A DNA stretch of 64,000 nt, taken from positions 34,816,824-34,880,823 of the forward strand of contig CM018035.1 in assembly GCA_008638375.1 (NCBI GenBank), read 5' to 3'. Origin of the DNA: Nyssa sinensis. Taxonomy: Eukaryota; Streptophyta; Magnoliopsida; Cornales; Nyssaceae. Of this stretch, positions 6,812 through 58,117 are shown in pieces. Position 1 is the first letter of the stretch. Each line of letters opens with the position of its first letter. Below the pieces are notes generated by a model that saw only the letters and a program-made list of their open reading frames with translations, did not search any database and had not been told where the DNA came from. Position numbers and translations under genes: made by a program.

Positions 6812-6815
6812 AATC

Positions 6816-9800
6816 TGACACGACCCGAGACCCACCCTATGCGGATCTCGAGCCGTGCACCCGATCCGACATTGGGTGTCGAATCAAGGGTTCTTATCTT
6901 GCTACACAATCAGTGTCACTAACATGCAAGAACTAAATATGCGGAAGACTTAAATAAATATTTAGGTAAGGTTGCATGTTATACATAAAGTGTTCTCAAA
7001 ATGCAGAATACAAAATTTCTTAATACAACTAATCTTTCCAGGACGTGGATAACGTGGGAGTGCTATAAGACTATCTGTACTAAGCATTACCCTGCAACTT
7101 CAAAAGTATGTCCACTGCTATTTAGATAGCTGCTACTGCTACTGCTGCAGCTCTTCTACAACTTCATTTCTTGAAAGGGGTGGTAAGTTTGGGGTGAGCT
7201 AACTAAAGCTCAGTAAGTAATTCTCTTTTGCTCTGTCATGTGTACAAGAATAGAGGCACTATCCATGAAAGAATTAGGATAAATGCAGATATGCTAGCCA
7301 GTCATAAATACTGAACTCATCTATGATCATCAGAAGATAAGAAATTCAAAGATAAACAAGGAAGATCTATCTGACAATATAATCATATGTGCTGAATAAA
7401 AGCTGTGAAGTTTCAAAGTCACACATAAACATGAATATGTTCAAGTTACAAATATCGATAACATCAATAATATAAGATACTGATAGCAACGAATCTGCGA
7501 TGCCATGATGCTAGACCCGAAGGTCATAACTAGACCCGAAGGTCATATCTAGACCCGAAGGTCTTAACTAGACCCGAAGGTCTTAACTAGACCCGAAGGT
7601 CTTAACTAGACCCGAAGGTCTTAACTAGACCCGAAGGTCATATCTAGACCCGAAGGTCTTAACTAGACCCGAAGGTCATATTTGGATCCAAAGTAAATTA
7701 TGTCTAGACCCGAAGGTCATATCTAGACCCGAAAGTCTTAACTGGCATTAGATGGAAATGTGGTTGATCACAAATCTGGCACTTAAATATCATCCATGAA
7801 GAATAAAGTGAAACTATGATTGAACAGAACTGTCTGGCCTTTACAGCCCTAGGTACGAATGTACAACAAGAATTCAATATACAAATATACCATCATGATC
7901 AAGATATATGTATGAACATCATCAAATGCTTCCCACATGATAGAACAATATCGATGTGGTTCTATAAATTCTGATAACCGTGTAAGGAGTACAATAAGCA
8001 ACGTATATGGAAAGAGCTATGACTTGGCTTGGAATGTAGCACATACAGAGATCAGAGATTACTTACACCTTTTACCGATCCTTAGAATTCAAGCTAGTCC
8101 CTCTCCTTTATCTTTTGACGTGCCTGTCATTGGAAATGTACTCAGTCTATAATCATAACTCATCTATGCTATATATTCAAATTTGCTTATCTTGGCTATC
8201 GGTATCTTAATTACTAATTTGGATGTCATCATTGTATCCAGAACGTCGAATACAAGTGGTTTAGGCTTTTACGGATCTTAAATCGGACTCCTGGATTGAA
8301 AATGGCAAAACTGTTATTTTTTATTTTACGTGTCTTTTATTCCCGGGACCTCTTTTCAACATTTTGACCCCACCATTGGTTCCAGAAGGCTCGAGATAAT
8401 AAGATTTGACTATTTATTCGTTTCGTTTGGACTTCGTTTGACCTACTTTTGACTTAGGGGTAATTTCATAATTTATTAAATTTTCTGTTGGGCCTCAGTG
8501 GGATTTCTCATAAATATTGGGGTTGGTGTGCAATTACCAATAGTTTTGGTCTGAACCCACTCCCACTGAACCGACCGGTTCAGATGAACTCAATCAACAA
8601 AATGGCCCACGATTTTCCGACCATTACTCCGGTTGCCACTTCCGGCGCCGGTCGCCGGAACTGCCACCTTTCCCCACTGTTTTCCACCTCATTTGACGTC
8701 CATTTCCTCCGATTTTTCATATCAAATTACCTCTAACAATCTCAACAACTCGTTTAAACTAGATTTGACCTGATTTCTTACCGTTTCCGGCACCCATAAT
8801 CAGTTTTCCGGCCACTGCTCTACCTCCGGCCAACTCAGTTTTCTTACACATTCCGTTGTCCATTCTTACTGATTTTCATATCAAATGATCCTAAATCTTT
8901 AGGCATTCAGTTTAGACCTGTTTTAGACCACTACCATATACAATTTCCAATACCCGGTTAGCTATTCCGGCCATGCACCGGTGACAAATAATTTGACCAA
9001 ACTTGGTCATTCCGAGACCATTTTAACTGATTCAAGTTGCGTTGGACTCCTGAAAATGTTTCCTACTCGTTTCCAGTCTTAAAATTAAGATTAATTCGAC
9101 ATACAAAAATCTACCATTATTGACCGTGCACCTAGTTTGAGTTTCTTGATTTTTCTTCATGCTTCGGTTGCTTATTTTCTGCATGCATTCATGCTAAATT
9201 TTAAGAGAGAAGTTTAAGAAACTAACATGGATTAATACCTGTTTGGTTGCTGCTTCTTCCTCCTCAAACTCTCGGTTTCTCCAAACTGCTTCTTTCTTTC
9301 TCTCCCCAAATTTCCTGCTTCTTCCGTTTTCTTTGTCTCTTTCTAACCTTCTCTCTCTCTCTCTCTATCTCTATTATTTCTTACCAACTCCACCGACTTG
9401 GACCAGTGACAACGCCACCTGTAGCTTCGGTTACATGCACTGCACACTTGTTCATGCATGGCTGCCATGCAGCTTGTAATTCTTTAGCCCTCGACACCTC
9501 ATCTCCTACTCATTCTCTCTCTCTAATTTCAGTGTGCCAATGCCCACCGATTTGAGTCTGCTTGCCCACGGTTTTCTTTGATTCCTGATTCATATACTTA
9601 TGTGATTTGTATATACATATATAATATAATCTTACATATATATGCATGCAATCCATACACCTACACACGTACACATCCCACTACACCTCACACAGCTGCA
9701 CATATATATATGTATATATACTGCTATATATATATATGCATATAGGTATATTTTCATTTATTTATTTATATTATTATTCTTATTTTATTTCTTTTTTTTT

Positions 9801-10087
9801 TCTTTATACCACATTCTTCAGTTTCCTCGTCTCAGTTTTGGAATCGAATCGTTTGATTATTTCTCGATTGGCATGTTCTATTGGACAGTTGACTGTCGCT
9901 CGCCCATTTTAAAATTTTTCTTAGCTTATGATTGTTATTCTAATATTTTGACAACCTAATAATTCAATTTAAATTTGAAACTTATTTACGTCATAATTTG
10001 ACTTACAGCTGAAGGTCACATATCATGGCTCGATCCAACCCGGGTTTACCTCGATATAAGTGTCATATCCCGGGTCGGGACATTACA
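6816..10087 (-). repeat. 3' LTR of family A element
   Basis: This 3,272 bp LTR on the - strand starts at 10087 with TGTAATGTCCC and ends at 6816 with GTGTCA. It is nearly identical by eye to 13969-17175. Most of the 65 bp length difference is explained by three extra copies of the 19 bp repeat (11 units here, 8 in the partner). It holds a (CT)n tract near 9350-9370 and TA-rich simple sequence near 9600-9740. A 71-codon frame at 7937-8152 recurs in all three LTR copies, but I read it as chance. Confidence 0.85.
7511..7745 (+). repeat. 19 bp tandem repeat (TAGACCCGAAGGTCTTAAC), 11 units
   Basis: Units alternate between endings CTTAAC and CATATC and are interrupted once by a diverged unit containing TGGATCC. 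Each contains GACCCGAAGGTC, an imperfect palindrome able to form a short hairpin. Other copies of the array lie at 3685-3850 (8 units, reversed), 4918-5115 (9) and 14677-14852 (8). Confidence 0.9.
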
Positions 10088-10101
10088 TTCTTACCCCCTT
10101 A
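10088..10101 (-). other. Polypurine tract of family A
   Basis: Read on the - strand this is AAGGGGGTAAGAA directly before the LTR start TGTAATGTCC. It is the expected plus-strand priming site at the end of the internal region and fixes the element on the - strand. Confidence 0.75.
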
Positions 10102-10339
10102 AAAATAAGTTTGTCCTTAAACTTAGCGTTCTAACTCCGAGGTTTTCGTGGTTTCTTTCACATCGTGGTATGGCTCGAACAGAGGTTTCATTAACTAGAT
10201 CAAACTTTTCTACTGAGAATCAAGTTTTACAGTCATATTAAATCAAGTTTTACAGTCACATCAGATCACGTTTCTATTTTTCCAATATTCCTAAGAGTAT
10301 CTCAAACCCTCACATGAATTTCAATTTCTCTAAGAATTT

Positions 10340-10790
10340 CGATTTCTTTCTATGGTCTTCCATAAAGTCAAACCATCTCCCTGATGTAAAGCTCAACTAG
10401 TTGTCCTAAGGTCTGTGTTGCCTTGGTCGCGAGAAAGTGAGTCATATTGGTAAGTTTATCCACAATAACGCATATGCTGTTGCTTTTTTTTGACGTTTTG
10501 TTGGCAATCGTGACACAAAATCTGTTGTCATGCGCTTCCATTTCCACTCTGATATTGGAAACGGCTACAAGAGTCCTCCGGGCTCTTGGTGTTCAACCTT
10601 AATTTACTGGCACACTATACAATGTGCAATATACTCAACTATGTTCTGGACCACCAGTAAGTATTTCTGCCATTACGATACATTTTGGTGTTTCCTGGGT
10701 GTATGACGAATCTTGAATGGTGTGTCTCATCTAGAATCTCCTTTCTAGTTTCTGGTATGTCTGGCACATAAATTTGGTCTTAGTAATACA
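10340..10790 (-). pseudogene. Chromovirus integrase remnant
   Basis: Conceptual translation of the - strand, allowing frame changes, gives pieces of a Ty3/gypsy integrase in the correct order. First is an N-terminal zinc-domain piece (KEILDETHHSRFVIHPGNTK, near 10690-10750). Next is a region corresponding to the start of the catalytic core (near 10510-10590), then VDKLTNMTHFLATK (near 10428-10470) and finally LVELYIREM (near 10380-10405). These match the general chromovirus pattern of a histidine zinc domain followed by a VDRLTKSAHF-like core strand. Several stops and frameshifts break it. It lies near the 3' end of the internal region, as expected for pol. Confidence 0.75.
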
Positions 10791-13700
10791 ACACTCCATC
10801 CCAGATGGCAAATTACTAGACCTTGCCTACTTCAACATCCTAACAAGGTTTGGTCAATGCTGCATCTTGGGACCTGTGGGTTATGGGCCTACCACACTTC
10901 CGCTGTGGTACTCTGATTCTGTCCATAACAAATGGACTAACTATGATATTGGCACACGGTGCTCCTAAACTAGGCAGAACCATCTCGATTTCCATTCAGC
11001 TCTTGTAGCAACTCTATCGGATAAGCTAGACTTTCTAGCGACTGTCGACTAAGGCATCTGTTATCACACTTATCCTTCCCATTGGGTTTTCTATTCTTGT
11101 TTAAGATTTAGTCAGGTGGTTTAAGCTTTCTAAATTCAATATTGTTCATAATACCTTTACTGTTCCTAGATCTTTCCTTCCTTCTACATTTGAAAGCATT
11201 CTGGTACGGGTTCTACAATTTCGTATATCATTTTATTTCACGATTCTTTCTAAATAATGATGCACTACTCTTTCAGTTTCCTTGCCATCATTTAGGTTAC
11301 ATTAATCTCTAAAAGTTCTCAGGTTATTCATCACAAACTTTCCTTTAGCTCAATGGAGGGCCATTCTTTATTCGAGTCGGATCTACTACTCAGGTTACTG
11401 AGGTTTGTTAGATATCTCAGTCTTTTCTCAGGATCTCTACATTTTAAAATGTTAGCTTCTAATAGTCTTGTTTGCTGAGTAGTTATCTACTAAACTCTCT
11501 TTGTCTTTAACTTTTTAGGGTCTATCTATTTACTCAAGACTTTTCACATTTCTGGTATGTCATCAATTTATTACGCAAATTGATAAATTTTATTAACTCC
11601 CATGGACTTACCCCCTTTAAACTACCTTATGACTCCAATGAAATGTCGATCCCCAGTCCTTAGATGGCTTAGAAGTTCAGATCTATCATCTATTATCAAG
11701 ACTTCCATAGTGCTACGTCAAATCTCCAAAAGTGGAACTTAGTACTTATGGCTCAGGTACTCTGTGGTTCTCGATCCACATCTTAATGCTCTGATGTGGT
11801 CAATGGTCTGGGAACCACTCCACTAATCATTGCACATCTTTTCGTACTCTTTTGTTTAATTTATTAGTGATCTCGAAAGTCGAGGTTTTGACTTTTAACT
11901 TCCTCGAGGTTTTAGGCTTAAGCATTTCAATGCTTATTTCTTTAGTCCTTGGACATATTGCTATGGATTCATTATGCTTTCATAACTCACTCGAAGTCAT
12001 CTTTTACAGTCATTTGACTGTTTCTCTATGTTATGCCCGTGGATCTCTACCATTCATAAACCTTTACTTTTCAATCAATTTCTTTGGTACTAATAATATA
12101 AAAGTAACGGTGTAGCTAATACCCCCTCTTATCATTTAGAATACATTAGGTTTTGCATTCAAGTATTTTAATCTTTACTTAAGAATAGAGTCATTAATTT
12201 TCTAATTTCACTTTGGACTCTATCCCATGCACTTGGCGGCATGATTTGCAACAAGAGAGATTTCTACTGAAAGTTCACGTGGTTGGGGTTTGGACTGGTG
12301 AAACAAGAGGGACCGTCCGGCCAAGTCGGCTGGAAGGTTAAATGATGATTGTAGTGCCAGTGGAATGTTGACTACAACCAGATAAAGGTTGGATATGTTC
12401 ACATCTGAGGAACAGGATGTTCCTTTGGACGTTGAATTAATTATGATGGTCTTTTGTTCACGATTGAACCTTCCATAGATTTTCGTTCCCCCATTCCTTT
12501 ATGGATTTAGTATGGCAACTATACTTTGTTCGTTTCTTCTTTAAGTCTTAACAGACTGATTAAGAATTTCTTCGAGCAGTCTTTTACCCCAGTTAACAGT
12601 TCTTCGTATGTTTATAGGGGTTCTTAACTGTAAGATCATATTTGGTTCACCATGAGCCTTCTAAATCATTTGAACTATTTAATTCTCGAAGTCTCATGAC
12701 TCCCTAATTTACAACCATTATTTTGGTTTTACTTACCTTTGTTCAAAAGGTTATTCGGGTGTTTAGTTTTTCGTACTCAGCAATCATATTCGGTTTTCAT
12801 CACATCCCCAAATTTACAAATCTGTTCTCCTAGAGAACCTTTTCAACCGTATGGGGAGTTCTTATGCATTCCGTGACTTCAAAGTCACATTATTATATGA
12901 TCAGTCTTATCCGTAACCAAGGATTTAATATCATGCTGGTACTTACACATTTGTAAGGACTGCTATTCACAATCTTGTCCACTCTGGGACTTTATGTCAT
13001 GTTTTGAATTATTTAAATAATTTAGTTATCTTGTCATTAGATCACCACTTCTGGTATCTAGAGTTTTTCACGTTTAATGAAGGTTTTTGTAATCATGGAA
13101 GTTTACAACTTCTTCCAATACCACAGTTTTAGTCATTCTTATATTCTCCCCAATTACAGTCGTTATCGTAGTACCTCAAGGAATCACGTACCTCTTATAT
13201 CTTAATTGTGTCCCCACACATCTTTCTAGACATTTGCTACCAGTTCAGCCTCTTTAATCGTTAGATCCTATTGGTACTCAAAATTCATTTAGAATCGTCA
13301 ATCATTTATCTTTTGAAGCAGCTCGGCTAACTCGATGGAGTATTATTCACAGTTGGGTTGTACAGTCATCTTGTTCAACATGATTCATTGAATTTCACCC
13401 CAATAGTCATTCATCATACGGCAGTCTCCAAAAGAATTAAAATAACATTTATAATGTTATCTTTAACAGTCTCGTCTATTCAGTAGTTATCTCTCGGGGC
13501 TCTATTTGTCTTTACTCTGTTAGGGTCTACTTATGATTCACTCAAGAATCCTCATATTTCTGATATGTCACCAAGTTATTCGGAGTCTCAAATTCATCAT
13601 GTCACCATGTGTTTGACCATCTTTATTGTCCACGAGTCATCAAACCCAATCATAATATAGTCTTTCTCAAAAACTGTTAACCTCAATACTTAAACACATT

Positions 13701-13953
13701 ATCGTCCCCCAAAAGCCAATGATCCATTAATCATTTAAATAATCTAATCCTCAAATCCAGTGTTGGAAAGATTTTTCCCAAAAGAATCATTAACCATAAG
13801 TTATAATATAGTCCTCGATTTCTCAAAATCATCAATTTCGTTCACAAGCCTACTGTGGTCTCCCGAGGATTACCGTTCATTTGATAATCTTAGTCACCCA
13901 AGAAACATCAACTTTAATCATGACTTGGTCTTCCCCAAAGACCATTAACCTAA
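10791..13953 (-). mobile_element. Decayed internal region of family A
   Basis: About 3.1 kb between the integrase remnant and the primer site has no frame above 90 codons and no motif I can recognise for gag, protease or reverse transcriptase. It is nonetheless colinear with two other places: 2942-3576, and the + strand region 55857-58132. For example, 13290-13330 matches the complement of about 56270-56300, and 12545-12590 matches about 56915-56950. It is shorter than the gag-to-RT part of an autonomous chromovirus, so a deletion is likely. Confidence 0.6.
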
Positions 13954-13965
13954 GCTCTGATACCA
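13954..13965 (-). other. Primer binding site, initiator tRNA-Met type
   Basis: The - strand reads TGGTATCAGAGC, starting three bases after the 5' LTR end. This sequence is complementary to the 3' end of plant initiator tRNA-Met and is the usual primer site of many plant LTR retrotransposons. Confidence 0.9.
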
Positions 13966-13968
13966 ATC

Positions 13969-16900
13969 TGACACGACCCGAGACCCACCCTATGCGGAAT
14001 CTCGAGTCGTGCACAGTATCCGACCTTGGGTGTCGAATCAAGGGTTCTTATCTTGCTACACAATCAGTGTCACTATCATGCAACAACTACATATGCGGAA
14101 GACTTAAATAAATATTTAGGTAAGGTTGCATGTTATACATAAAGTGTTCTCAAAATGCGGAATACAAAATTTCTTAATACAACTAATCTTTCCAGGACGT
14201 GGATAACGTGGGAGAGCTATAAAACTATCTGTACTAAGCATTACCCTGCAACTTCAAAAGTATGTCCACTGCTATTTAGATAGCTGCTATTGCTACTGCT
14301 ACTGCTACTGCTGCGGCTCTTCTACAACTTCGTTTCCTGAAAGGGGTGGTAATTTTGGGGTGAGCTAACTAAAGCTCAGTAAGTAATTCTCCTTTGCTCT
14401 GTCATGTGTACAAGAATAGAGGCACTATCCATGAAAGAATTAGGATAAATGCAGATATGCTAGCTAGTCATAAATACTGAACTCATCTATGATCATCAGA
14501 GGATAAGAAATTCAAAGATAAACAAGGAAGATCTGTCTGACAATATAATCATATGTGTTGAATAAAAGCTGTGAAGTTTCAAAGTCACACATAAACATGA
14601 ATATGTTCAAGTTACAAATATCGATAACATCAACAATATAAGATACTGATAGCAACGAATCTGCGATGCCATGATGCTAGACCCGAAGGTCATAACTAGA
14701 CCCGAAGGTCATATCTAGACCCGAAGGTCTTAACTAGACCCGAAGGTCATATCTAGACCCGAAGGTCTTAACTAGACCCGAAGGTCATATCTGGATCCAA
14801 AGGAAATTATGTCTAGACCCGAAGGTCATATCTAGACCCAAAGGTCTTAACTGGCATCAGATGGAAATGTGATTGATCACAAATCCGGCACTTAAATATC
14901 ATCCATGAAGAATAAAGTGAAACTATGATTGAACACAAATGTCTGGCCTTTACAGCCCTAGGTACGAATGTACAACAAGAATTCAATATACAAATATACC
15001 ATCATGATCAAGATATATGTATGAACATCATCAAATGCTTCCCACATGATAGAACAATATCGATGTGGTTCTATAAATTCTGATAACCGTGTAAGGAGTA
15101 CAATAAGCAATGTATATGGAAAGAGCTATGACTTGGCTTGGAATGTAGCACATGCAGAGATCAGAGATTACTTACACTTTTTACCGATCCTTAGAATTCA
15201 AGCTATTCCCTCTCCTTTATCTTTTGACGTGCCTGTCATTAGAAATGTACTCAATCTATAATCATAACTCATCTATGCTATATATTCAAATTTGCTTATC
15301 TTGGCTATCGGTATCTTAATTACTAATTTGGATGTCATCATTGTATCCAGAACGTCGAATACAAGTGGTTTAGGCTTTTACGGATCTTAAATCGGACTCT
15401 TGGATTGAAAATGGCAAAACTGTTATTTTGTATTTTACGTGTCTTTTATTCCCGGGACCTCTTTTCAACATTTTGACCTCACCATTGGTTCCAGAAGGCT
15501 CGAGATAATAAGATTTGACTATTTATTCGTTTCGTTTGGACTTCGTTTGACCTACTTTTGACTTAGGGGTAATTTCATTATTTATTAAATTTTCTGTTGG
15601 GCCTCAGTGGGATTTCTCATAAATATTGGGGTTGGTTTGCAATTACCAATAGTTTTGGTCTGAACCCACTCCCACTGAACCGACCGATTCAGATGAACTC
15701 AATCAACAAAATGGCCCACGATTTTCCGACCATTACTCCGGTTGCCACTTCCGGCGCCGGTCGCCGCAACTGCCACCTTTCCCCACTGTTTTCCACCTCA
15801 TTTGACGTCCATTTCCTCCAATTTTCATATCAAATTACCTCTAACAATCTCAACAACTCGTTTAAACTAGATTTGACTTGATTTCTTACCGTTTCCAGCA
15901 CCCATAATCAGTTTTCCGGCCACTGCTCTACCTCCGGCCAACTCAGTTTTCTTACACATTCCGTTGTCTATTCTTACTGATTTTCATATCAAATGATCCT
16001 AAATCTTTAGGCATTCAGTTTAGATCTGTTTTAGACCACTACCATATACAATTTCCAATACCCGGTTAGCTATTCCGGCCATGCACCGGTGACAAATAAT
16101 TTGACCAAACTTGGTCATTCCGAGACCATTTTAACTGATTCAAGTTGCGTTGGACTCCTGAAGATGTTTCCTACTCATTTCCAGTCTTAAAATTAAGATT
16201 AATTCGACATACAAAAATCTACCATTGTTGACCGTGCACCTAGTTTGAGTTTCTTGATTTTTCTTCATGCTTCGGTTGCTTATTTTCAGCATGCATTCAT
16301 GATAAATTTTAAGAGAGAAGTTTAAGAAACTAACATGGATTAATACCTGTTTGGTTGCTGCTTCTTCCTCCTCCAACTCTCGGTTTCTCCAAACTGATTC
16401 TTTCTTTCTCTCCCCAAATTTCCTGCTTCTTCCGTTTTCTTTGTCTCTTTCTAACCTTCTCTCTCTCTCTCTCTCTATCTCTATTATTTCTTACCAACTC
16501 CACCGACTTGGACCAGTGACAACGCCACCTGTAGCTTCGGTTACATGCACTGCACACTTGTTCATGCATGGCTGCCATGCAGCTTGTAATTCTTTAGCCC
16601 TCGACACCTCATCTCCTACTCATTCTCTCTCTCTAATTTCAATGTGCCAATGCCCACCGATTTGAGTCTGCTTGCCCACGGTTTTCTTTGATTCCTGATT
16701 CACATACTTATGTGATTTGTATATACATATATAATATAATCTTACATATATATGCATGCAATCCACGCACCTACACACGTACACATCCCACTACACCTCA
16801 CACGGCTGCACATATATATATATATGCATATAGGTATATTTTCATTTATTTATTTATATTATTATTCTTATTTTATTTCTTTTTTTTTTCTTTATACCAC

Positions 16901-17175
16901 ATTCTTCAGTTTCCTCGTCTCGGTTTTGGAATCGAATCGTTTGATTATTTCTCGATTGGCGTGTTCTATTGGACAGTTGACTGTCGCTCGCCCATTTTAA
17001 AATTTTTCTTAGCTTATGATTGTTATTCTAATATTTTGACAACCTAATAATTCAATTTAAATTTGAAACTTATTTACGTCATAATTTGACTTACAGCTGA
17101 AGGTCACATATCATGGCTCGATCCAACCCGGGTTTACCTCGATATAAGTGTCATATCCCGGGTCGGGACATTACA
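13969..17175 (-). repeat. 5' LTR of family A element
   Basis: This 3,207 bp LTR on the - strand starts at 17175 and ends at 13969, three bases from the primer site. It is a near copy of 6816-10087 throughout, including the (CT)n stretch near 16460 and the TA-rich stretch near 16720-16830. It holds 8 units of the 19 bp array at 14677-14852. Confidence 0.85.
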
Positions 17176-24399: not shown

Positions 24400-24829
24400 A
24401 TGATTGACAATTTTCAGTCTGAATTAGGAATGATTAAACTGTGGCCGAGAGTTAACCTTCCCTTTGATTCAGTCTCCAAGGAAGGATTAGAGGAGGCTAA
24501 GATCTTCTTGTCCATCTTAGCATCCGGCCGAGATTTCTCCGATGGGAGGTGGACCCTCCTTGATTCAACTGAGGCTTGGAGCATTGATGATGAAGATGAA
24601 GGTGGGATGCCTCATTCCCTTTGTGTCTTGGCAGAGACCCTTACTCAAATCGGCTGGGGTATCACGCCTACTTTGAGGGAGATGAATGGAGGTCCCCTGA
24701 GACCCAAAGCCCTCATCATCCGTTGGTATTGAGATAAGTGACAGTGATGATGAAATGGCCTGGGTGCTTCTTGCTGCAGATTGGGGTTCAGGGTTCCTTC
24801 CTTTCAAATGGAGTCGGCGGCGGCGGTAA
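24400..24829 (+). pseudogene. Antisense ORF 2 of Tat element, unrecognised protein
   Basis: An open frame on the + strand begins MIDNFQSELGMIKLWPRVNL and runs 110 codons to a stop at 24730. If the frame shifts by one base near 24700, coding-like sequence continues through ISDSDDEMAWVLL, an acidic patch, to an Arg-rich end and a stop at 24827-24829. I do not recognise the protein. It has a TATA-like box 110 bp upstream and AATAAA at 24972 downstream, so it resembles a small separate gene. The frame break could be a mutation or an unseen intron. Confidence 0.45.
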
Positions 24830-27659: not shown

Positions 27660-29350
27660 TGATGAGTGTGTGAAAGTGCACTCTAAATACCCGATTATTG
27701 GATTAAATTACTAGAAAGTGAATAAAATATTGGGTTGTGTTTGATATTATTTTATTTAATTTTTATTCACACTGAGATTGGTTGGAACGGTATTTCATAA
27801 GATTTTAAATCTCAAATATTGCAATATTTATTGGCGAGAGATAATTCATAATTATGACTCACATTTAATATTTTTGAGCTTTATTATTCGAATTATTTAT
27901 TTAAATATTATGTTGATGACAGTCGTATTACACTTAAAATCCGACACTCCAAACCGTCCAACAGGCCAAAACAAACAGTGCAGCAAAAGAAAGAAAAGGA
28001 AAAAAATGACATGAAAAAGCTGAAGCACTGGAGCATAATGTTTAAAAAAAAATAAAGAAAACTAAAGTGGGCTTTGTTGGCGTGGCTGCGCAGACTTGGA
28101 GCAGTTGAGTAGAGGCAAAGCAGATTTGGAATAAAGCTTGTGGGCCTAGGTTGATGCGGCTGTTTGGTTCGTGAGCTGGGCTGCTGGCTTGGGACTTGGC
28201 AGCACAGCGCCTGCTTGGGCATGCAACGTGAAACGGCTGGTGCAGTTGGTGGAGTGGGCCAAAGAGTGAAGAGGGGCGTGCGGCTGCGGCTGACAAGGAA
28301 GCCTGGGCTTCGTGAGGCCCTGACGTGCGCTTGCTCCGTGTGGACCATGCGCCTAAGGCTCAAATCAGGACGTTCTGAGCTGGCGTTTGGGGCTGTGAAC
28401 TTGACGGTTGAAATAGGAAAAGTTGCTGTGGGCCATGAGGCTTTAGGGTATTGCGTGAGAGTATTTAAAGACAAAAAAAATATTCAGGGGGGGGAATTAC
28501 ATAACAGAACGACGTCGACGGCTGCGACAGGAGGAGAGATTGGGCGGCGGCTACTGTGCAGAGGACAGAGTGGTGCGGCTGCGCAGCAGTTCTATGGCTC
28601 AATTCTTCTTCATGAAATTTATGTTATCCGTTCTGTACATGGGTAACTAAATTTTCAAGTAGAGTTAGGGATGAACTTGCATAATAGATGGTTATTTTAA
28701 TTTATTTTTGATTCCTGTACGGAGTTTTCACTTGTTAAATTCTTTGATGATCATTTATAAATTATTGTTGGATTTTATTTTCTGAATAATTAAAGGGTTC
28801 AGTCTATTTATAGATTCAGTCATGCTTTTTCTATCGAATGGATTAATGTTTTGATTATTTTTAGAACAATTAAATATTCATATTGATTCAATTCCTTGCT
28901 GCAATATTGCTCGTTGGGTTTATTGTCGTCGTTGGGTTTTCTCAATGTGAATAATAATTTGAGTGATTTAAAAGTGTTGAATGATTTTTCAAAGGATTAC
29001 TTTCAGTCTAATTTTGGTTCATAATTTTTATATCTTCTGATTGAGATATTTGGAATTTAAATTCTCAATTGAGTTAACAGTGAATTAAAAATAATTAAAA
29101 TACCAGTTATGTGTAAGGGATTCCCGAAACTCTACTGTTCGTTAAATTTGAATATTTTCATCTGTTATTCAGCTTGTTTAATTTTTAGTTGCATTCAAAA
29201 TCACTTTCTATATTTTTATTTTTTTCGTTAACTGTCTAATATTTTTGTAGTTCAGAAATTTTGTTTATTATTCTTTTAATTTAGTCTCCTTGTGGAATCG
29301 ACACCCCAAAGCTACACTACAACTACCGCGTTATTCTTTGGGCGTAATCA
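27660..29350 (+). repeat. 5' LTR of Athila-type element
   Basis: This 1,691 bp LTR starts TGATGAGTGTG and ends GTAATCA. A TATA-like TATTTAAAG lies near 28459. The GC-rich stretch upstream (28080-28440) gives overlapping chance frames on both strands. It closely matches 36683-38377. Confidence 0.92.
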
Positions 29351-29689: not shown

Positions 29690-32600
29690 ATGAGTGAATT
29701 TGAGGATCAACCCACTAGGACTCTTCAGGATTACCTCCACCCTACACGCACAGCCACACCATCATGCATCATGTTTCCACCCAATGCTCGTCCAATTGAT
29801 GTTAAAACGGGGGTAATACAGTTACTTCCTACATTTCATGGTTTGGAAAATGAGAATCCATATGTGCATATTAGGGAGTTTGAAGAGGTAGTTGCGACTT
29901 TTCATAGTCAGAATGCAACACAAGACATTGTGAGACTTAAGTTCTTTCCTTTCTCTTTGAAGGATCGAGCTAAGAGTTGGCTATACTCACTGAGACCACG
30001 GTCAATTGGATCGTGGAATGAGATGACCCAGATTTTCTTCACTAAATACTTTCCCCAACACAAGACCAATGCTTTAAAAAGACAGATTTCTACCTTTGCA
30101 CAAAAGGATAGTGAGACTTTATATCAGTCTTGGGAGAGGTTTAAGGAGTTATTGGGTATATGCCCTCACCATGGGTATGAGAGTTGGCGTGTAGTGAGCT
30201 ATTTTTATGAGGGACTTACACCTAGAGAGCGCCAATTTGTAGAGATGATGTGTAATGGTGAGTTTTTACAGAAAGATCCTGATGAGGCCATAGAGTATCT
30301 TAATGAGCTTGTTGAAAAAGCTCACACTTGGACAGGACCTAGTGCTACTGAGAGCACAAATAGGTCACGACCTATAGGGAGCCAACAGAGTGGGGGAATT
30401 TACCATCTTAGGGAGGAGGATAATTTGAAAGTTAAGGTTGAGACACTCACTAGAGAGTTAGAGATGCTAAAGGCTAGAGACGTAAAGCCAACACACTTGG
30501 CTAATCATGTAGAGCCTTTTAGACCATGTTCAGTGTGTGGCGGGGTAGATCACCTTGCCCAAGAGTGTCCCACATCAGCTGAGATGAGAGGGATGTATGA
30601 GGACCAATGTAATACCCTAGGTATGTACAAGAAGCCTTTCACACCCTACTCTGAGACTTACAATCCAGGGTGGCGCAATCACCCCAATTTTAGCTAGAAA
30701 TCTGAAAGCCAGCCACATGCACCACCACCTGCACAGCCTCCTAAATCATACCCTGCACCATATCATGCACCACGTCATGCATCTTCATCTTCTACGAATT
30801 CTTTAGAAGATACTTTACAGGCATTTATTGAAGCACAGGGTAAGACTAACCAAAAATTTGAATCTTTGATCACGCAGGTTGTTGAAGAAAACAAAGAGAT
30901 AAAGAGCCAAGTGTCTAAATTGATGAGCTGTTTGAGTGTGAATGAGCGAGGCCGATTCCCTTCCCAAGCTCAATCCACACCCCAAGGTCAACACATGGCA
31001 CAAGAGAATCTGAAGGATGCAAACGCCATTGTGACTCGAAGTGGTAAGTCCTTACACATCCCAATCATGGACAAATCAGATGATGTGGAAAAGGAATAAG
31101 ATGGTAGCAATGTTGAACTGCCCAAGGAACCAGAGGTGATGAAGAATTATGTTAAGGTACCATTCCCTCAGGCTTTAAAATCAACCAAGCGCACTCTGGA
31201 TCCTAATAATGAAATCCTCGAAAATCTCAGGCAGGTAAAAATCAATCTTCCTCTTTTGCATGTAATTAAGCAAGTTCCTACTTATGCAAAGGTTCTTAAA
31301 GATTTATGTACAGTTAAGAGGAAGCACCATGTGAAGAAGACAGCATTTCTGACAGAGCAAGTCAGTGCTCTCATTGAGCAGAGGATTCCCCCCAAGTATA
31401 AGGATCCTGGTTGTCCAACCATTGCATGCAGTATTGGAAATCACGAGTTTGGACAAGCTTTACTTGATTTAGGAGCAAGTGTGAATTTAATGCCTTATTC
31501 TATTTACTTGCAGATGGGGTTGGGAGAGATCAAACCAACCTCTGTGGTATTGCAATTGGCTGACCATTCAGTCAGAGCACCACGGGGTGTGGTAGAGGAT
31601 GTTTTAATTCAAGTTGATAAATTTTATTATCCTGTTGATTTCATAATCCTTGACACTAACTCTACTGTTGATTCTACCTCTAAAATTCCTTTGATTTTAG
31701 GTAGGCCTTTCCTTGCCACAGCTAATGCTCTTATCAATTGCAGGAATGGACTTATGAAGCTGTCTTTTGGGAACATGACTCTTGAGGTGAATATATTTCA
31801 TGTTGCAAAACAGCTAGAAGAGGATGATGAGTGCCACCAGACATACATGATTGATTCACTCGTTGATTCACTCATAGATAGGGGAGTTCCTCCAACTCAT
31901 GATTCCGATCCCCTTGAGCATTTTTTGGTTAATTCTGAGTTCGATTATATTGATGATCCATCTGATGTGGTCGATATTTGTGCTATTTTTGATAGGACTC
32001 AGGATTATGGAGCACGGGGGTGGCAACCAAAGTTTGAAGAGTTACCTACAAAAAGGGAAGAGCAGATTCCTTCAAGTGTGGTGCCCCCAAAAGTTGAATT
32101 GAAGCCTTTGCCTAAGGGTTTAAAACATGCTTTCCTTGGTCCAGGTGACACTTTTCCTGTTATTATTTCATCTGAATTATCTGCGTCCCAAGGCGAGAAA
32201 TTAATTCAGACCCTGAATAGGCATAGGCCGGCTATAGGTTGGAGCATAGTTGACATAAAAGGTGTTAGTCCCCTAGTTTGTTCGCATAAAATTAATTTGG
32301 AGGAAGGAACTAACCCTCGTAGAGACCCCCAGCGTAGGCTTAATCCCACTATAAAGCAAGTGGTGAAAAATGAATTTTTGAAACTATTAGACGCAGGCAT
32401 TATATATCCTATTGCTAATAGTAAATGGGTTAGTCCTACGCAGGTTGTCCCGAAAAGGTCAGGTGTCACTGTGATAAAAAATGACCTAGAAGAGTTAGTC
32501 CCTACAAGACTTGTGACTGGATGGCGGATGTGCATTGATTATAGAAAACTGAATGCCGCCACTCGAAAAGACCATTTTCCTCTCCCTTTTATTGATCAAA

Positions 32601-36682: not shown

Positions 36683-38377
36683 TGATGAGTGCGCGAAAGT
36701 GCACTCTAAATACCCGATTATTGGATTAAATTGCTAGAAAGTGAATAAAATATTGGGTTGTGATTGATATTATTTTATTTAATTTTTATTCACACTGAGA
36801 TTGGTTGGAACGGTATTTCATAAGATTTTAAATCTCAAATATTGCAATATTTATTGGCGAGAGATAATTCATAATTATGACTCACATTTAATATTTTTGA
36901 GCTTTATTATTCGAATTATTTATTTAAATATTATGTTGATGACAGTCGTATTACACTTAAAATCCGACACTCCAAATCGTCCAACAGGCCAAAACAAACA
37001 GTGCAGCAAAAGAAAGAAAAGGAAAAAAATGACATGAAAAAGCTGAAGCACTGGAGCATAATGTTTAAAAAAAAATAAAGAAAACCAAAGTGGGCTTTGT
37101 TGGCGTGGCTGCGCAGACTTGGAGTGGTTGAGTAGAGGCAAAGCAGATTTGGAATAAAGCTTGTGGGCCCAGGTTGATGCGACTGTTTGGTTCGTGAGCT
37201 GGGCTGCTGGCTTGGGACTTGGCAGCACAGCGCCTGCTTGGGCATGCAACGTGAAACGGCTGGTGCAGTTGGTGGAGTGGGCCAAAGAGTGAAGAGGGGC
37301 ATGCGGCTGCGGCTGACAAGGAAGCCTGGGCTTCGTGAGGCGCTGACGTGCGCTTGCTCCATGTGGACCATGCGCCTAAGGTGCAAATCAGGACGTGCTG
37401 AGCTGGCGTTTGGGGCTGTGAACTTGACGGTTGAAATAGGAAAAGTTGCTGTGGGCCATGAGGCTTTAGGGTATTGCGTGGGAGTATTTAAAGATAGAAA
37501 AAAAAATATTCAGGGGGGGAATTACATAACAGAACGACGTCGACGGCTGCGACAGGAGGAGAGATTGGGCGGCGGCTACTGTGCAGAGGACAGAGTGGTG
37601 CGGCTGCGCAGCAGTTCTATGGCTCAATTCTTCTTCATGAAATTTATGTTATCCGTTCTGTACATGGGTAACTAAATTTTTAAGTAGAGTTAGGGATGAA
37701 CTTGCATAATAGATCGTTATTTTAATTTATTTTTGATTCCTGTACGGAGTTTTCACTTGTTAAATTCTTTGATAATCATTCATAAATTATTGTTAGATTT
37801 TATTTTTTCGAATAATTAAAGGGTTCAGTCTGTTTATAGATTCAGTCATCCTTTTTCTATCGAATGGATTAATGTTTTGATTATTTTTAGAACAATTAAA
37901 TATTCATATTGATTCAATTTTTTTGCTGCAATATTGCTCGTTGGGTATATTGTCGTCGTTGGGTTTTCTCAATGTGAATAATAATTTGAGTGATTTAAAA
38001 GTGTTGAATGATTTTTCAAAGGATTACTTTCAGTCTAATTTTGGTTCATAATTTTTATATCTTCCGATTGAGATATTTGGAATTTAAATTCTCAATTGAG
38101 TTAACAGTGAATTAAAAATAATTAAAATACCAGTTATGTGTAAGGGATTCTCGAAACTCTACTATTCGTTAAATTTGAATATTTTCATCTGTTATTCAGC
38201 TTGTTTAATTTTTAGTTGCATTCAAAATCACTTTCTATATTTTTATTTTTTTCGTTAACTGTCTAATATTTCTGTAGTTCAGAAATTCTGTTTATTATTC
38301 TTTTAATTTAGTCTCCTTGTGGAATCGACACCCCAAAGCTACACTACAACTACCGCGTTATTCTTTGGCCGTAATCA
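36683..38377 (+). repeat. 3' LTR of Athila-type element
   Basis: This 1,695 bp LTR is colinear with 27660-29350, with scattered substitutions and a few 1-2 base indels. The TATA-like TATTTAAAG is near 37485. It ends GTAATCA, followed by the CGATC duplication. Confidence 0.92.
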
Positions 38378-39061: not shown

Positions 39062-39760
39062 GTCTGCTTCGATACCCCTCTAGGAGACAATGTATCCCAA
39101 GAATTTTCCCTTCGTAACCCCGAATGTACATTTCGAGGGGTTAAGCTTCATCTTGTGCTGTCTGAGGATATCAAAGGTCTGGGCTAAATGCTGGAGGTGA
39201 CTACCTTTCTGCAGACTTTTGACCAGCATATTGTCAATGTATACCTCCATGGTATTGCCGAGCAGCGGGCTGAACATCTTGTTCACCAATCGCTGGTAAG
39301 TGGCTCCCGCGTTCTTTAAACCGAAAGGCATTACTCTGTAGCAGTAGAGACCTCATTCGGTTATGAAAGCTGTCTTCTCTTGGTCTGAAGGGTATATCTG
39401 AATTTGGTTGTACCCAGAGTAGGCATCCATGAAGCTCATGAGCTCATGCCCCGCAATGGCGTCAACCAATTGATCTATCCTTGGCAGTGGAAAGTTGTCT
39501 TTGGGGCACGCCTTATTGAGGTCTGTATAATCAACGCAGACTCTCCACTTGCTATATTTCTTCTTGACCAGGACGGTGTTGGCTAGCCACTCGGGATAGA
39601 ACACTTCTCGTATCATCCTGGCTTCAAGCAGCCTCTGGACTTCCTCATTTATAATCCGATGTCGTTCAGGAGCAATCGGCCTTTTCTTCTGTCTGACTGG
39701 TGGGTGATCTGGATCTACCATCAGCTTGTGAGTTATGAGATTAGGATCTATACCCTCCAT
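39062..39760 (-). pseudogene. Tat-type reverse transcriptase, inactive site
   Basis: Two open segments in one frame (39353-39760 and 39080-39331) cover the core of RT. The first holds a WRVCVDYTDLNKACPKD block and FMDAYSGYNQI with the first catalytic Asp. The second holds MPFGLKNAGATYQRL and VYIDNMLVK, where the second Asp of the YxDD site is Asn (codon at 39232-39230). A TGA at 39355 sits where an Arg is usual, and a TAG at 39082 sits where Gln is usual. The protein would be inactive even if read through. Confidence 0.88.
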
Positions 39761-45617: not shown

Positions 45618-46420
45618 GCCTCTGTCACATCCCGCACCCCACCCTACACGGATGCTGAAGATGTGATGCCAGTTAGCCACCTTGCCAGTCTCCGACCGAC
45701 AATGCGACCAACCAAAGGCAATCTTCTGAACCTTACGATGAATTGCATTCCAAATGTAGGGTCAGAACAGCGGAAATTAAAACCTTTTTATCTCGGGAAT
45801 GCAACTCAATTATATACCTCATAAGCATGTACCACAGAGCAAGTCTATAACCAAACAACTAATAATTCTAATCACAAAACACATTTATAACAGATATATA
45901 ACACAGAGCATATCAAATTCCTCTAAAGTACCATTACCATGAGCCATGTCCCTACTCATCTATTACATATGAATAAAGTCAACTATATCATCACGCTCAC
46001 CTGAATAGCCAAGATCAATCCATTAGAACCCAAGTCTCCACATATTATTGCCATCAGATCCTTACTTGGGAATGCCTCTCAGTCCACTAGTGACATGTCC
46101 TTGTGCTTTCTAATCCAATGGAGATATACCCTGAAAAATGTTAAATAAATGGAATGAGCTTAAACAAGCTCAGTGAGTAACATAGGTTCCTGCCATGGGT
46201 TTCAAATCCAGTTCATATATACATGTATGCTCAAATGCAGCTCAAATAGAATAATGCAGCTCATGTAGAACAAATGCAGCTCAAACAGATCAGATCAGAA
46301 CAGAATAGAACAAATCAGATCAAACTGAATAGAATAGAACGGACAGAACAGATCAGAATTGAACTGAACTGAACTGAACAGAATACAAATCAATCAAAGG
46401 CATAGCATCAAATGCCTGAA

Positions 46421-46605
46421 CCTTCCCCAGCTGCCCATAAGCGGACGACTCGTGGGGCCTCTACCCTCTGGGGTCAGTATCAGAGCGGAACAGAACAGAA
46501 CTGAGCGGGACAGAAACAGAACAGAATGCCAATCATACAGACGAGCCTTCCCAGCTGCCCATAAGCGGACTACTCGTGGGGCCTCTACCCTCTGGGTCGT
46601 GCTCT
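46421..46605 (+). repeat. Tandem duplication of about 125 bp inside solo LTR
   Basis: The CAGCTGCCCATAAGCGGAC / ACTCGTGGGGCCTCTACCCT block occurs at about 46421-46485 and again at 46546-46605. Between and before the copies lies GAACAG/GAACTGA-rich simple sequence (46290-46400, 46485-46530). Confidence 0.8.
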
Positions 46606-47407
46606 GGCATAAAACCGCTCAATCCTGTGGTGGGCCCAGAGTAAGACACAACATAACAAAACAAAATCGAACCAGACTCCAAGGAAGGGTAACAAAACAA
46701 CAGACTTCAACAGAATTAACAGGATATATCAGAAGGCAGGATAGAACAAAATCATGCCACAAGTAATGCAGATCAAGAGGTATGCATGAAAGCATATGCA
46801 TTTAAAACAGTTCAGTGTATAAACAGTTCAGCATATAAAGCAGTATAGTATACAGAAAATATACACCAAGTCAGGAGTCCGAGTTACTCACAAACTCGTG
46901 CTTATCTCCATTCACAGATATCCCCCAGATGCGTTAGGTACCTCCATGCATATCCTCAATAATCATCATCCTGAATAATCATCATTAATTACAGACAGGT
47001 CAGAATTTAACCATTCATATATTATTCATTACCCTAGACGTCTATCGGATTGCCTAAGATAATCTAATGGCCTATTACTCTCTCATTGAGTTTCAACTAA
47101 GGCTATTATATTCCTTAATTAAGCTTAATAATTATCAGGGTTATAATATGAGTCATCCAGACTCTATCGCTATCCATCCCACTTACCAAATCTTTATACG
47201 AGGCATTATAACTAGGCATAAAACTAAATTTATCATTATTGACTAGTAACCCCAAAACCATAAAAGATATTACATTTGTTCAGGATCTTGCCAAACTGCA
47301 CTTTAAGATTTAATTGACAAATATTAGTACAGGAGCAAAGATGGAAAAGAAGTAATTACCTGATGTTAGTACTATTGGATTCATCCAACTCAACTCCTGC
47401 CCCTTCT

Positions 47408-47785
47408 TCATCTTCTGGTCACCGACATCACTCTTTTCACCCCCCATGACGGATTGCTACTTGGGGAATAATCAAGAACTGCCTTATGTGCAGGATTTGA
47501 CATGGCAGTTGCAGCCAACACACTAACAGGTTCGCCAGCAGTGAAGAAACTCTGGGGCTTAGTTCCAGCCTTGACCCCATACCTAAATTGGATAATCGAA
47601 TTACTACATACATTCTTCACCGTGCCATCATAATAGGTAACAACATCCCGAAGGACGACCATTAAGTTTTTGAATAAAGTTCCAAGCTCAGTCAACCTTC
47701 TAGATGAACGGACAATAACTTCTCTACTTGTTGAACTCGTGATTCCCTCTTCATGCCAAGCTAATCGATCCTTCCTAAAACACAT
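47408..47785 (-). pseudogene. NRPD1: Captured fragment of Pol IV/V largest subunit (NRPD1-like)
   Basis: An open frame of 125 codons lies wholly inside the solo LTR and is sense to it. Residues about 15-100 read as the catalytic C-terminal core of a plant-specific RNA polymerase largest subunit: RSSRRLTELGTLFKNLMVVL, then YYDGTVKNVCSNSIIQF (the YDGTVRN / IIQF signature shared by Rpb1-type subunits), then GEPVSVLAATAMSNPAHKAV and LDYSPSSNPSW. The last two, with SNPAxKAVLD and PSSN, distinguish Pol IV/V from Pol I-III. Family similarity stops at PSW. The last residues and the first dozen or so look like LTR sequence. GAAGCAG just upstream resembles a splice acceptor, and CAGGTAATT near 47356 a donor. 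The whole subunit is over 1,300 residues, so this is a small piece. I favour NRPD1 over NRPE1 but cannot prove it by eye. Confidence 0.75.
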
Positions 47786-49185
47786 CCCTGCTTCAATTCG
47801 AAGTTGTTTGCTGCAGCTCCCACAATTTATCTCATTCTCAAGCCAACAACTCCCTTATTACCAATTGCACGCCCAAAACCATATGGGACTGCTGCACTAT
47901 CATATTTCTTCATAAACTAATCCTTATTTTCCAAAGAGAAACCTGACCCTTAAATTCTGTAGAGGATCCTGTTGGTCCTTGTTGTAGTCGAGCAATCGCC
48001 AACACAAAAGGACCCAACGTGATCCACCCTCACAGCGACTGCTACGCAACTCGATCACTGTCGTTCCCCTCTCTGCACCACTACACCCATAAACATACAC
48101 ATATGTATACATGGATCAACTCATCAGGAACAGCCGTCTCCACAGAACTCCTATGACTGCCCACAACTCCATTCTTGTGAAGATAATCCAGTCCCAATAA
48201 CAACTATTTGTGCTTTCTATTTTACCAGATTTTTTTCTTTTGTACATGAACTCTGTTCAATTGCAATGGAAACTGATTTGGGCATCAATAGAATCCAGTG
48301 GGTTTGACAAATGAACCGGCAATATTCCCTTCAACATTACATTTTCCAATTTACTAATAACCCAAGAGGGACTCTAAGAACAAGTTCCAAATACTCAATC
48401 TCATCCTCTGATTTTTACTATGCACAACAGTTCAAGATATTTATGAATTCGATCCCTCCTACAATCAGTAACCAAATCGAAACGGAAGAAACCCTCAAAT
48501 TCTTCAACATTCGGACCACGCCCTTGTTCCCTCAAGATCAAGTTATGTACCTGCTGCACCGCAACTCCCGTAGCAGCAGCCTCAAAATCCCAATTTCAAA
48601 AATGCATCCTTTAGCTTCCCTTTTCCTTCAATTTCTCAGCACCACAACCAACAACACAATATATATATATACATATATATATTTATATATTTATTAATTC
48701 TGCTGCACCGCTACACAAGACGCACGTATATATACACATACCTTTGCTACTGCGTGCTGTTGCTTCGTGCCACTGCTCCAACAATTTCGGTTCTGCGGCA
48801 TCCAACGGCAGCTCCTCTAATCGGCTAAATCAGCCTTCCCCTGCACCGCTACTGCCGTCTCACTCCCAAACCCAATCACGTATCAGATTTCTCTCTCAAT
48901 TTGACCCACAAACAAACCGAGCTACTCAATCAAAAGCACATCTCTGCTCTTGATTAGCCGCAGCACCCGGCCACCATGCACACACACACCATGACCTGCT
49001 GCTCCATCACTCCTTTTTGCTTTTCTTGGTCGGTTTTCTCCAGCCTAGAGCATTCTAGAAGTGACCCATTTTATCCATTTCTCACGTGTTCCAGCAGCTT
49101 CTACGTTGCTATATTTCTCTTCTTTTTCTTTGCTTTCTTCAGTTTCCTTCAGCTTCTTCAAGAAGCTTCTTCAAGCTTTTACTTT

Positions 49186-49189
<4 letters not shown>

Positions 49190-49221
<32 letters not shown>

Positions 49222-49272
49222 TTAGGCTCCTTTACTATTTTAAAATATAACTTATATATATATATATATATA
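49190..49272. repeat. (TA)n microsatellites in solo LTR
   Basis: Two TA tracts lie near 49191-49220 and 49252-49272. A similar TA/TACA stretch is at 48659-48692. They generate spurious Tyr/Ile-rich frames. Confidence 0.9.
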
Positions 49273-49723
49273 TTCTTTTGAGTTAATGTCTTCTATTATC
49301 TTATTACAATTATATAAAATATAATTTCTATATATTTTATGTATACTATTCCCATTCCAAAATATTAAATTATGGAATGGCGACCAATTTGGTATAAAAT
49401 CAGTGCTCGATATCATTATTATATATTTTACTGATTTTAGGCTTCATTAATAATTTATTTTGTATTCGTATTATCTGCGTAATTAATTTATCCGTATCAA
49501 TCCCATTGATTTATCCTGGCACTCGGTTAACCGAGTCGTCTATTTCCCGAGCTTATATTATTATTTTGTGGTCTGAGTTAATTTTATATTTCCTAATAAT
49601 TAATTCAATCATGGCTCACTGTACTTTGGCCTATTTCGAATCGTTATCGTCACGTAATTTATTTTTTTATTAAATCAAGGTACAGTCTTGGTTCATGTCG
49701 AATTCTCGGGATATTACAGCCTC

Positions 49724-55856: not shown

Positions 55857-58117
55857 ACCCCTTGTGAATCCAAAACTTGGAAGCACGGGGCAAGATTAAG
55901 GTGACATAGAGTTGAGATTGTGAAATCTTGGGAAGTCGGTGGATTTAACAACAAATCTATATGAGAGATAGTCTGAGGAAGACTTAATGAATAGTAACGT
56001 GAGGAGTTTGAGACTCTAGATGGATTGATGACATATCAGAAATATGAGGATTCTTGACTGAGTCGTATAGGGTAAAGACAAATGGACCCTTGGGAGGCAA
56101 ATACTGATTGAACGAGACTATTAAGTGAACATTATGAAATGTGATGGTTCTAAAGGGGATTGAGACGTGATGAATGATCATTGGAAAAAATTCAATAGAT
56201 CTTGTTAGTCTAGGTGACAATATGACCCAATTGTGAGCAGGTACTTCATTGAGTTAACTGAATTTATTTCAAAAGATAAATGATTGATGACTCTAAATGA
56301 CTTTTGAGAATTTAAGTAATCTGACAATTAAAGAGATGGAGATTATGGCATAATGTCTAGAAAAACTGGTGAAGACAACGATTGTGCCAAAGTGATTACA
56401 TAATGCCTTGAGATACTACAAGAACAATTGAGATTAAGGTAGAAAATAAGAATAACAAAATCTGTGAAACTAAGGAAGTTGAGAATTTTCATAATGGGAA
56501 AAACGTGACATAATCTTGATGAACTTTGAATGTCAAATGTAACGATAAAATGATGGGATGGCTAATTGATGTGAACAATCCTGAAATATGATATAAAGTC
56601 ATAGAATGTACAAGAAACTCCCTATACGGTTGAATAAGTTCTTGAAAGAACAAATTTGTAAAAATTGAATAACGTCTGAAGAAAGAAATGTAACATGTGA
56701 TGAAAAATCGAATATGATGACGAGCATAAGAAATGAGACATTTGAACAACCCTTCTGAGCAAAGATAAGTGAAACCAAAATAATAGTTATAAATTAAAAA
56801 GTCATAAGACTTTGAGATTTGAACTGACCAACTGGTGTGGAAAATTCAAGGTAAACCAAATATGATAACATCGTTAAGAAAACTTTCGAAGTAAACTGTC
56901 ATATGAAGAATCAGTGACTGGGGTAAAAGACTACCTAAATTTTTCGAAGTATAGCTACTATACTTTAATCTATGAAGGAATGAGAAATCAAAATCTGTGT
57001 AAAGCTCGATTTTGAGCAAGAAATAAAAGGTCTTCGTACCAGTCTATAATTTGACCAAAAAAACAAAGAAAAAAAAATGGAGGAACTGATTTCCTCAACT
57101 TATCTAATTCATAAAAGGATGAATGCACATGAACTGACATGAACCAAAAGATGTTCATGAAAACAAAAAGGAATATGACGTTGAAAATGCTGAAGGGAAA
57201 TACGATAATGGTTGTAATCAAAGAAAGTCCAATAGACAAAAAGAAACTTAAATGAGTGACATTACAAATCTCGCAACCGAATGCATGTAGTAAATCCGAG
57301 GCGGAACTTGTGATAAAAAAAATGGGAGGAGAAATCGGAAAGACAGTTGTGTATAAGCTTCGGATAGATGAAAATCCAAACCCTTTCTTCCATATTATTA
57401 TCCTAAGCCTTCATATGAATCCAATTGGAATAATGTGAATCCATCAAGAATTCTGTCCTTAGTAAAACTTAAAGTACTCGAATGAGAAGCCAAAACACTC
57501 TAAATGATAGAAGTAGTGTAGTCTAGTTACACCGTTGACTTCCTATGACCACTACCAAAGAAATAGATAGAAAAGAAAAGATTAAGGTATTAGATACCTT
57601 TACCTGGCACATGATGCGCCACACGACGCCAACAGAAATTGAGATATCATGAACAATAAGGTAATCACGACCTAATACCAAATGAGATGAATATAACGAC
57701 TAGATGTGGAACTACTCAAGATACTGGTAACAAGGAAAAATAGTCAAGTAACTGAAAAGATGACTCAGGGTGAGTAATAAAAGTAATCGACCCCTAGTCA
57801 TAGATCTAAGAACTAAAGAAATACACATGGGAAGGTTAATACTAAGATTTGGAGACAATAAGTTAAAAGTCCCAAAGAAGTTAAAAGGTCAAACCCTTGA
57901 TTTTCAAAAATTTACTATTGAATTAAAACAAAGGGGAATACAAAAGAACTATGAACCCTGTATAAAGAAATCTTCTTGCTTGAGAATATAGTATCTGAAT
58001 ACTAGAGACAAGTGCAAGAGACAGATTAAAAAGGGAAATATAATGATGAAATTGGCATGAGGAAATAATAGAGTTTCTTAGATTATGAACATTTGAGTTT
58101 TGGGGACAAAACTCAAT
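55857..58117 (+). mobile_element. Decayed internal region of a + strand chromovirus (family F)
   Basis: This stretch is colinear with the reverse complement of the family A internal region: about 56020-56060 matches 13545-13575, 56270-56300 matches 13290-13330, and 56915-56960 matches 12530-12590. It has only short chance frames. The end reads TTTTGGGGACAAAACTCAAT, a decayed form of the usual pol end. Its left part is cut by the insertion of element E. Confidence 0.65.

Follow-up and report, generated by a model that had tools for sequence, protein, structure and literature searches.

The 64,000-nucleotide window of Nyssa sinensis DNA analysed here (contig CM018035.1 of assembly GCA_008638375.1) contains two separate pieces of NRPE1, the gene for the largest subunit of RNA polymerase V (Pol V), each lying within an LTR retrotransposon sequence. 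Fragment A (47438–47758, minus strand) is held in sense orientation within a solo LTR, and fragment B (12257–12448, plus strand), a new finding that had been missed in the initial annotation of this DNA, lies in antisense orientation in the decayed internal region of another element. Plants require Pol V to direct methylation to transposons, and if pieces of its gene ride in silenced elements, the silencing of these elements may yield small RNAs against the plant's own silencer. It is likely that two LTR retrotransposons each took up a genomic piece of NRPE1 and carried it as a decaying passenger; even as a passive event, this would raise with unusual sharpness the question of whether silencing genes are over-represented among the genes captured by transposons.

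The 125-codon open frame that drew attention to fragment A is present at 47408–47785 as originally described, on the minus strand, which had been left unstated, with an ATG at 47785 and a stop ending at 47408. From stop to stop the frame comprises 148 codons free of stops (47408–47854, minus); the plus-strand translation of 47408–47785 is interrupted by stops, and all three motifs quoted in the initial annotation are found in the minus-strand translation. Homology to NRPE1 covers about 107 codons as a single uninterrupted exon piece. In a search of PDB chains, the Pol V largest subunit was the best match (E 3.6e-38), followed by Pol IV (E 3.2e-6), Pol II (E 6e-4 and worse), and Pol III (E 0.018 and worse), so the proposed identity as a Pol IV/V largest subunit stands with best matches to Pol V and none better outside this pair, and is narrowed to NRPE1; an origin from Pol IV (NRPD1) is ruled out by these scores. 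The aligned part of the 1,976-residue Pol V chain is residues 749–859, and fragment A is therefore a mid-protein piece rather than part of the "catalytic C-terminal core" to which it had been assigned. Pfam gave just a sub-threshold match to RNA_pol_Rpb1_5 (E 0.0022), and the counterpart of the second half of fragment A in RPB1 is presumably the trigger-loop part.

A first protein search with fragment A returned 17 proteins of 82–247 residues from the same region. A second search, in which long proteins were allowed and scored on fragment A, gave 254 matches, and the best 120 of these (814–2,275 residues; plants where named; many annotated as Pol V subunit 1 and others hypothetical or unnamed) were treated as NRPE1 throughout, having been chosen by their similarity to fragment A, to which they are 63–81% identical over 76–94% of the frame. 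When the window was searched with these 120 proteins in the manner of tblastn, fragment A was matched by all 120 and fragment B by 106 (12266–12448, plus; best match 69% over 65 amino acids, E 1.7e-17), and the best E value on a base-reversed window was 0.09. A profile built from 60 of 103 proteins of 1,700–2,200 residues likewise recovered fragment A (iE 6.2e-56) and fragment B (iE 2.8e-15); the sole other row had an iE of 46, and the reversed control gave no matches. Fragment B corresponds to a different part of NRPE1, just upstream of the conserved C-terminal SIRRI... stretch, and it contains two in-frame stops and ends at ATG/GT. Two further weak tblastn matches, at 24696–24770 (E 0.016) and 39074–39280 (E 0.019), score slightly better than the best match on the reversed window (0.09) but are absent from the profile results and are probably chance.

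Whereas plant NRPE1 is a complete gene, the window holds isolated, decaying exon pieces with matches of about 107 (A) and 64 (B) codons and no complete gene. The profile found no further NRPE1 exon beside fragment A, which in the sequence searched is accordingly not a segment of a complete gene standing outside any LTR, the situation that the initial annotation had named as contrary to its claim. No extension of the homology beyond fragment A was detected when two frames from upstream and one from downstream were searched against PDB, frameshift-tolerant alignment of its surroundings performed no better than alignment of shuffled proteins (41/60 as good upstream and 34/60 downstream), and tblastn gave just three matches in the rest of the solo LTR, at E 0.97–4.7. 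Among the database proteins, P0002, on a short contig, appears by eye to be an NRPE1 piece that is spliced and frameshifted, and P0015 an NRPE1 piece joined to unrelated sequence; judging from these two, other plants may also contain scraps of NRPE1.

The solo LTR around fragment A extends over 4,096 bp (45623–49718). Its plus-strand ends read TGTCACATCCCG...CGGGATATTACA, its sense strand, the minus strand, reads TGTAATATCCCG...GGGATGTGACA, and the 5-bp target-site duplication GCCTC is found on either side (45618–45622 and 49719–49723). The earlier description of a solo LTR flanked by a target-site duplication is borne out by these TG...CA ends and flanks and by the lack of an internal region. 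When the flanks are joined, a single open frame of 66 codons runs across the junction. No further copy of the LTR was found in the 64-kb window at a blastn E of 1e-3. The sense orientation of fragment A, also claimed at the outset, is supported by the motif TTACTYACTGAGCT, which occurs on the minus strand at 46180 in the solo LTR and at 14386 in an LTR of the fragment B element; the latter LTR has minus sense, set by the neighbouring primer-binding-site complement at 13954–13965. Since the sense strand of the solo LTR is the minus strand, fragment A is sense to its LTR. A same-strand match (79% over 53 bp, E 1e-4) also links the solo LTR to the LTR-like region at 51.5–56 kb, which is itself similar to the LTR family of the fragment B element. 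Shared flanks of A and B, and a shared origin of their two LTRs, were rejected on direct comparison, in which the best E values were 0.72 and 0.64, respectively. CpG depletion is similar in the LTR, fragment A, and the whole window.

The element around fragment B is bounded by LTRs at 6816–10087 (3' LTR) and 13969–17175 (5' LTR), both on the minus strand, and the internal region between them (10088–13968, minus) carries the primer-binding-site complement GCTCTGATACCA at 13954–13965, by which the sense of the element is set as minus; TGGTATCAGAGC is taken to be a tRNA-Met primer site. An integrase H2C2 remnant lies on the minus strand at about 10645–10752 (E 1.1e-4, below the curated cut-off). 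Fragment B, on the plus strand, therefore lies antisense within this element. A clear outer target duplication was not seen on inspection by eye, and the left LTR adjoins further LTR copies. The stretch 2942–17175 is made up of nested and tandem LTR copies of one family (4457–6810, 6816–10087, and 13969–17175) with an inverted copy at 3575–4457 and an internal-region piece at 2942–3578 that is 96% identical to 13103–13739.

Both the solo LTR and the fragment B element probably belong to Ty3/gypsy elements of the Del/Tekay kind. The 4.1-kb solo LTR is in the range reported for Del LTRs (1,143–4,831 bp; PMC4029996), and its TG...CA, att-like termini may be those of a Del/Tekay chromovirus; in contrast to those elements, the LTR alone remains here, without the coding region for integrase and chromodomain. 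The two ends of the solo LTR resemble each other, and the GGG reported for the U5 end (PMC4029996) suits either direction, at a reported position that differs by one from the count made here.

The ends of the two matches suggest that unspliced genomic DNA was copied, because both stop beside an exon end followed by GT. In 11 of the 17 partial proteins, the sequence reads ...MK (after ELMK), then V, and then unrelated residues, as expected of read-through into an intron starting with GT, and in one of these 11, P0017, the following exon, EILLC, is reached; of the remaining proteins, three read straight across and three end before the site. The match of fragment A ends at SNPSW, or four codons on at AGA/GTG, that is, at or no more than four codons from this conserved exon end, and GT follows. 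The next exon, EILLC..., was absent downstream of fragment A in one frame by PDB search and in all frames by tblastn and alignment. The match of fragment B ends at ATG/GTC where the homologs read EPIM-x-SIRRI, which points to an intron at this end as well. Exons joined across an intron, as in a processed capture derived from mRNA, are not seen in fragment A, which crosses no junction; as neither A nor B crosses an exon junction, the pieces would also be compatible with an mRNA origin, although we infer capture at the DNA level. LTR-derived flanks of fragment A were present in none of the 17 partial proteins, and the available parts of two papers on Pol IV/V held nothing useful on NRPE1 introns (PMC2834690, PMC10815247).

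Fragment A has diverged at residues that are otherwise nearly invariant. Its core comprises 94 codons (47444–47725), at 58 of which conservation among the 120 proteins reaches 97% or more, and seven of these 58 residues are changed in fragment A. At the same positions, 98 of the 120 proteins show no change, 17 show one, three show two, one shows three, and one shows five, counts that ignore shared descent and come from proteins picked by similarity to fragment A, a choice that may favour conserved sequences. Compared with nine of the partial proteins, 8 of 49 conserved positions are changed in fragment A, against 1–6 in those proteins. If the usual residue is assumed to be ancestral, six of the seven changes are single C>T or G>A steps. 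On the other hand, part of the divergence may be ordinary lineage difference, because it is measured against the NRPE1 of other species and the identity of fragment A to the NRPE1 consensus (78/94, 83%), although close to the lower limit, still falls inside the span of the 120 proteins (82–98%, median 90%). The NRPE1 tree, in which groups of 87–100 tips have support of 0.63–0.75, gives fragment A no firm place, and the branch of fragment A is barely the longest (0.174 vs 0.171).

The initial annotation had remarked that the frame is still open. The frame is indeed open over the 94 core codons, yet this says little for function, because shuffles and neutral simulation also give such frames: a frame of at least 148 codons turned up in 19 of 300 shuffled versions of the LTR, and at a divergence of about 0.055 per site, our estimate from 7/58 codons, about 62% of neutrally simulated copies kept the core stop-free. 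In fragment B, 4 of 13 conserved positions are changed, or 2 of 11 without two misaligned end columns, compared with 0–3 in 102 NRPE1 proteins, and the two stops are a stronger sign of its decay than these changes. From their sequences, neither A nor B looks functional as a protein.

The decay of fragment B also exceeds the age of the LTRs around it. The two LTRs differ by a K2P distance of 0.020 (42 transitions and 21 transversions in 3,194 aligned bases), and at a substitution rate of 1.3e-8, from the grass literature, this 2% divergence corresponds to about 0.8 million years. The simulated probability of at least two new stops arising in fragment B since insertion is 0.003 at the rates used here, and because the two stops exceed what the LTR age leads one to expect, the decay of fragment B had probably begun by the time this copy of the element inserted. 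It would probably have moved with the element, unless it was already decayed on arrival or the LTRs were later homogenised by gene conversion.

Taken singly, each piece is explained by passive capture and decay. Two different LTR retrotransposons would each have picked up a short, unspliced piece of NRPE1, one within its LTR in sense and the other within its internal region in antisense, and the pieces would have travelled as passengers, decaying and not kept as Pol V protein. Their changes look mostly like the C-to-T and G-to-A steps expected of methylated transposon DNA, and at most the pieces could provide extra template during silencing of the elements. The initial annotation's reading of the LTR as carrying, in sense, part of the gene for a Pol IV/V largest subunit is supported, with the gene now narrowed to NRPE1, and of the interpretations offered there, passive capture is favoured because fragment A is changed at conserved residues. 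LTR elements are well known to capture fragments of genes, with 672 LTR-captured genes given for rice, 1,343 for sorghum, and 424 for maize, as well as the element Bs1 of maize (PMC13317346, PMC3726574). A partial, often decaying host gene in an LTR element is common to Bs1, its like, and the present case, which differs in that the captured gene is central to the pathway that silences such elements and occurs in two elements of one window; furthermore, fragment A lies within the LTR itself, where the captured-gene passages of these sources name no host-gene piece (PMC13317346, PMC3726574). In BARE-2, the LTR contains foreign retrotransposon sequence, in contrast to the host-gene piece in the solo LTR here. 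The oddity is the occurrence of the same anti-transposon gene twice in a 64-kb window, which random passive capture explains poorly unless copies of NRPE1 are common in the genome.

A host-gene piece within the boundaries of an element, as found for fragment A, could also have been added to an element that was already dead, for example as break-repair filler or inside a nested Pack-MULE or Helitron, without ever having moved with the LTR element. Such late insertion is possible but rather unlikely for the pieces in general. The solo LTR around A cannot be dated, and it may already have been dead, as a single copy, when A was inserted into it. Around B, about 12220–12570 aligns poorly with 55991–57871, an inverted relative of the fragment B element that is otherwise 68–72% similar, which is consistent with replacement or insertion there; the relative has a different sequence at the corresponding place and no NRPE1 match by profile. 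Against late insertion, no inverted-repeat pair brackets fragment A among the 25 listed of 59 found, and a single 11-nt pair (91%) brackets fragment B, observations by which a nested DNA transposon with inverted repeats was rejected. Furthermore, since B is more decayed than the age of its LTRs allows, its late arrival would need a donor that was already decayed. Passive capture, with fragment A moving together with its LTR, is preferred to this course.

An active role in counter-defence is improbable. According to this explanation, siRNAs from A (sense) and B (antisense) would match NRPE1, lower the dose of Pol V, and weaken the silencing of the elements themselves, so that copies carrying the pieces would be favoured. 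It would account for the presence in this window of two elements with parts of the same silencing gene, sense to its element in one case and antisense in the other, and captured fragments in maize transposons are described as siRNA reservoirs able to silence their donor genes (PMC13317346). Any effect on NRPE1 would come about through silencing of this kind, known in that account from Helitrons, Pack-MULEs, and Sireviruses; the difference is that the donor here itself belongs to the machinery of siRNA-directed methylation and that the present case is known from DNA sequence alone (PMC13317346). However, the changes at conserved sites in A and the stops in B suggest drift, which would leave fewer perfect 21–24-nt matches to the host gene, loss of Pol V would harm the host as well, and no report of NRPE1 capture by transposons was found in the open-licence literature, judged by titles and the starts of abstracts. 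Similarly improbable is the broader proposal that LTR elements of this plant repeatedly captured and spread NRPE1, with sense and antisense siRNAs dampening Pol V in a counter-attack through RNA-directed DNA methylation (RdDM) itself.

It is very improbable that A and B are what transposon insertions have left of a local NRPE1 gene or pseudogene. Two exons of one gene are present in the window, and both apparently keep an exon end followed by GT, but they are on opposite strands, so a single gene would need an inversion; A is inside an insertion bounded by target-site duplications, B lies between a young pair of LTRs, and the profile found no other NRPE1 exon in the window. The expression of A as a small Pol V-like decoy protein that poisons the polymerase deserves hardly any credence, for despite its 125-codon frame with an ATG, sense to the LTR, the frame length is within that of shuffles, a stop-free state is likely under neutrality, conserved residues are changed, and the domain is partial.

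In a Pfam scan of eight stretches in six frames, covering about 33.6 of the 64 kb, no other host domain was found and the integrase remnant alone was detected; the scan of long frames is a weak control, because fragment A itself was missed there. A match to the plant snoRNA snoR71 (Rfam RF00097, E 9e-9) lies at 30070–30177 on the minus strand, opposite a retrotransposon gag frame that it overlaps. Finally, the direct repeats at 27660–29195 and 36683–38222, which are 96–99% identical and about 9 kb apart, are likely the two LTRs of a Ty3/gypsy element; frames for gag, integrase, and, below threshold, protease lie between them.
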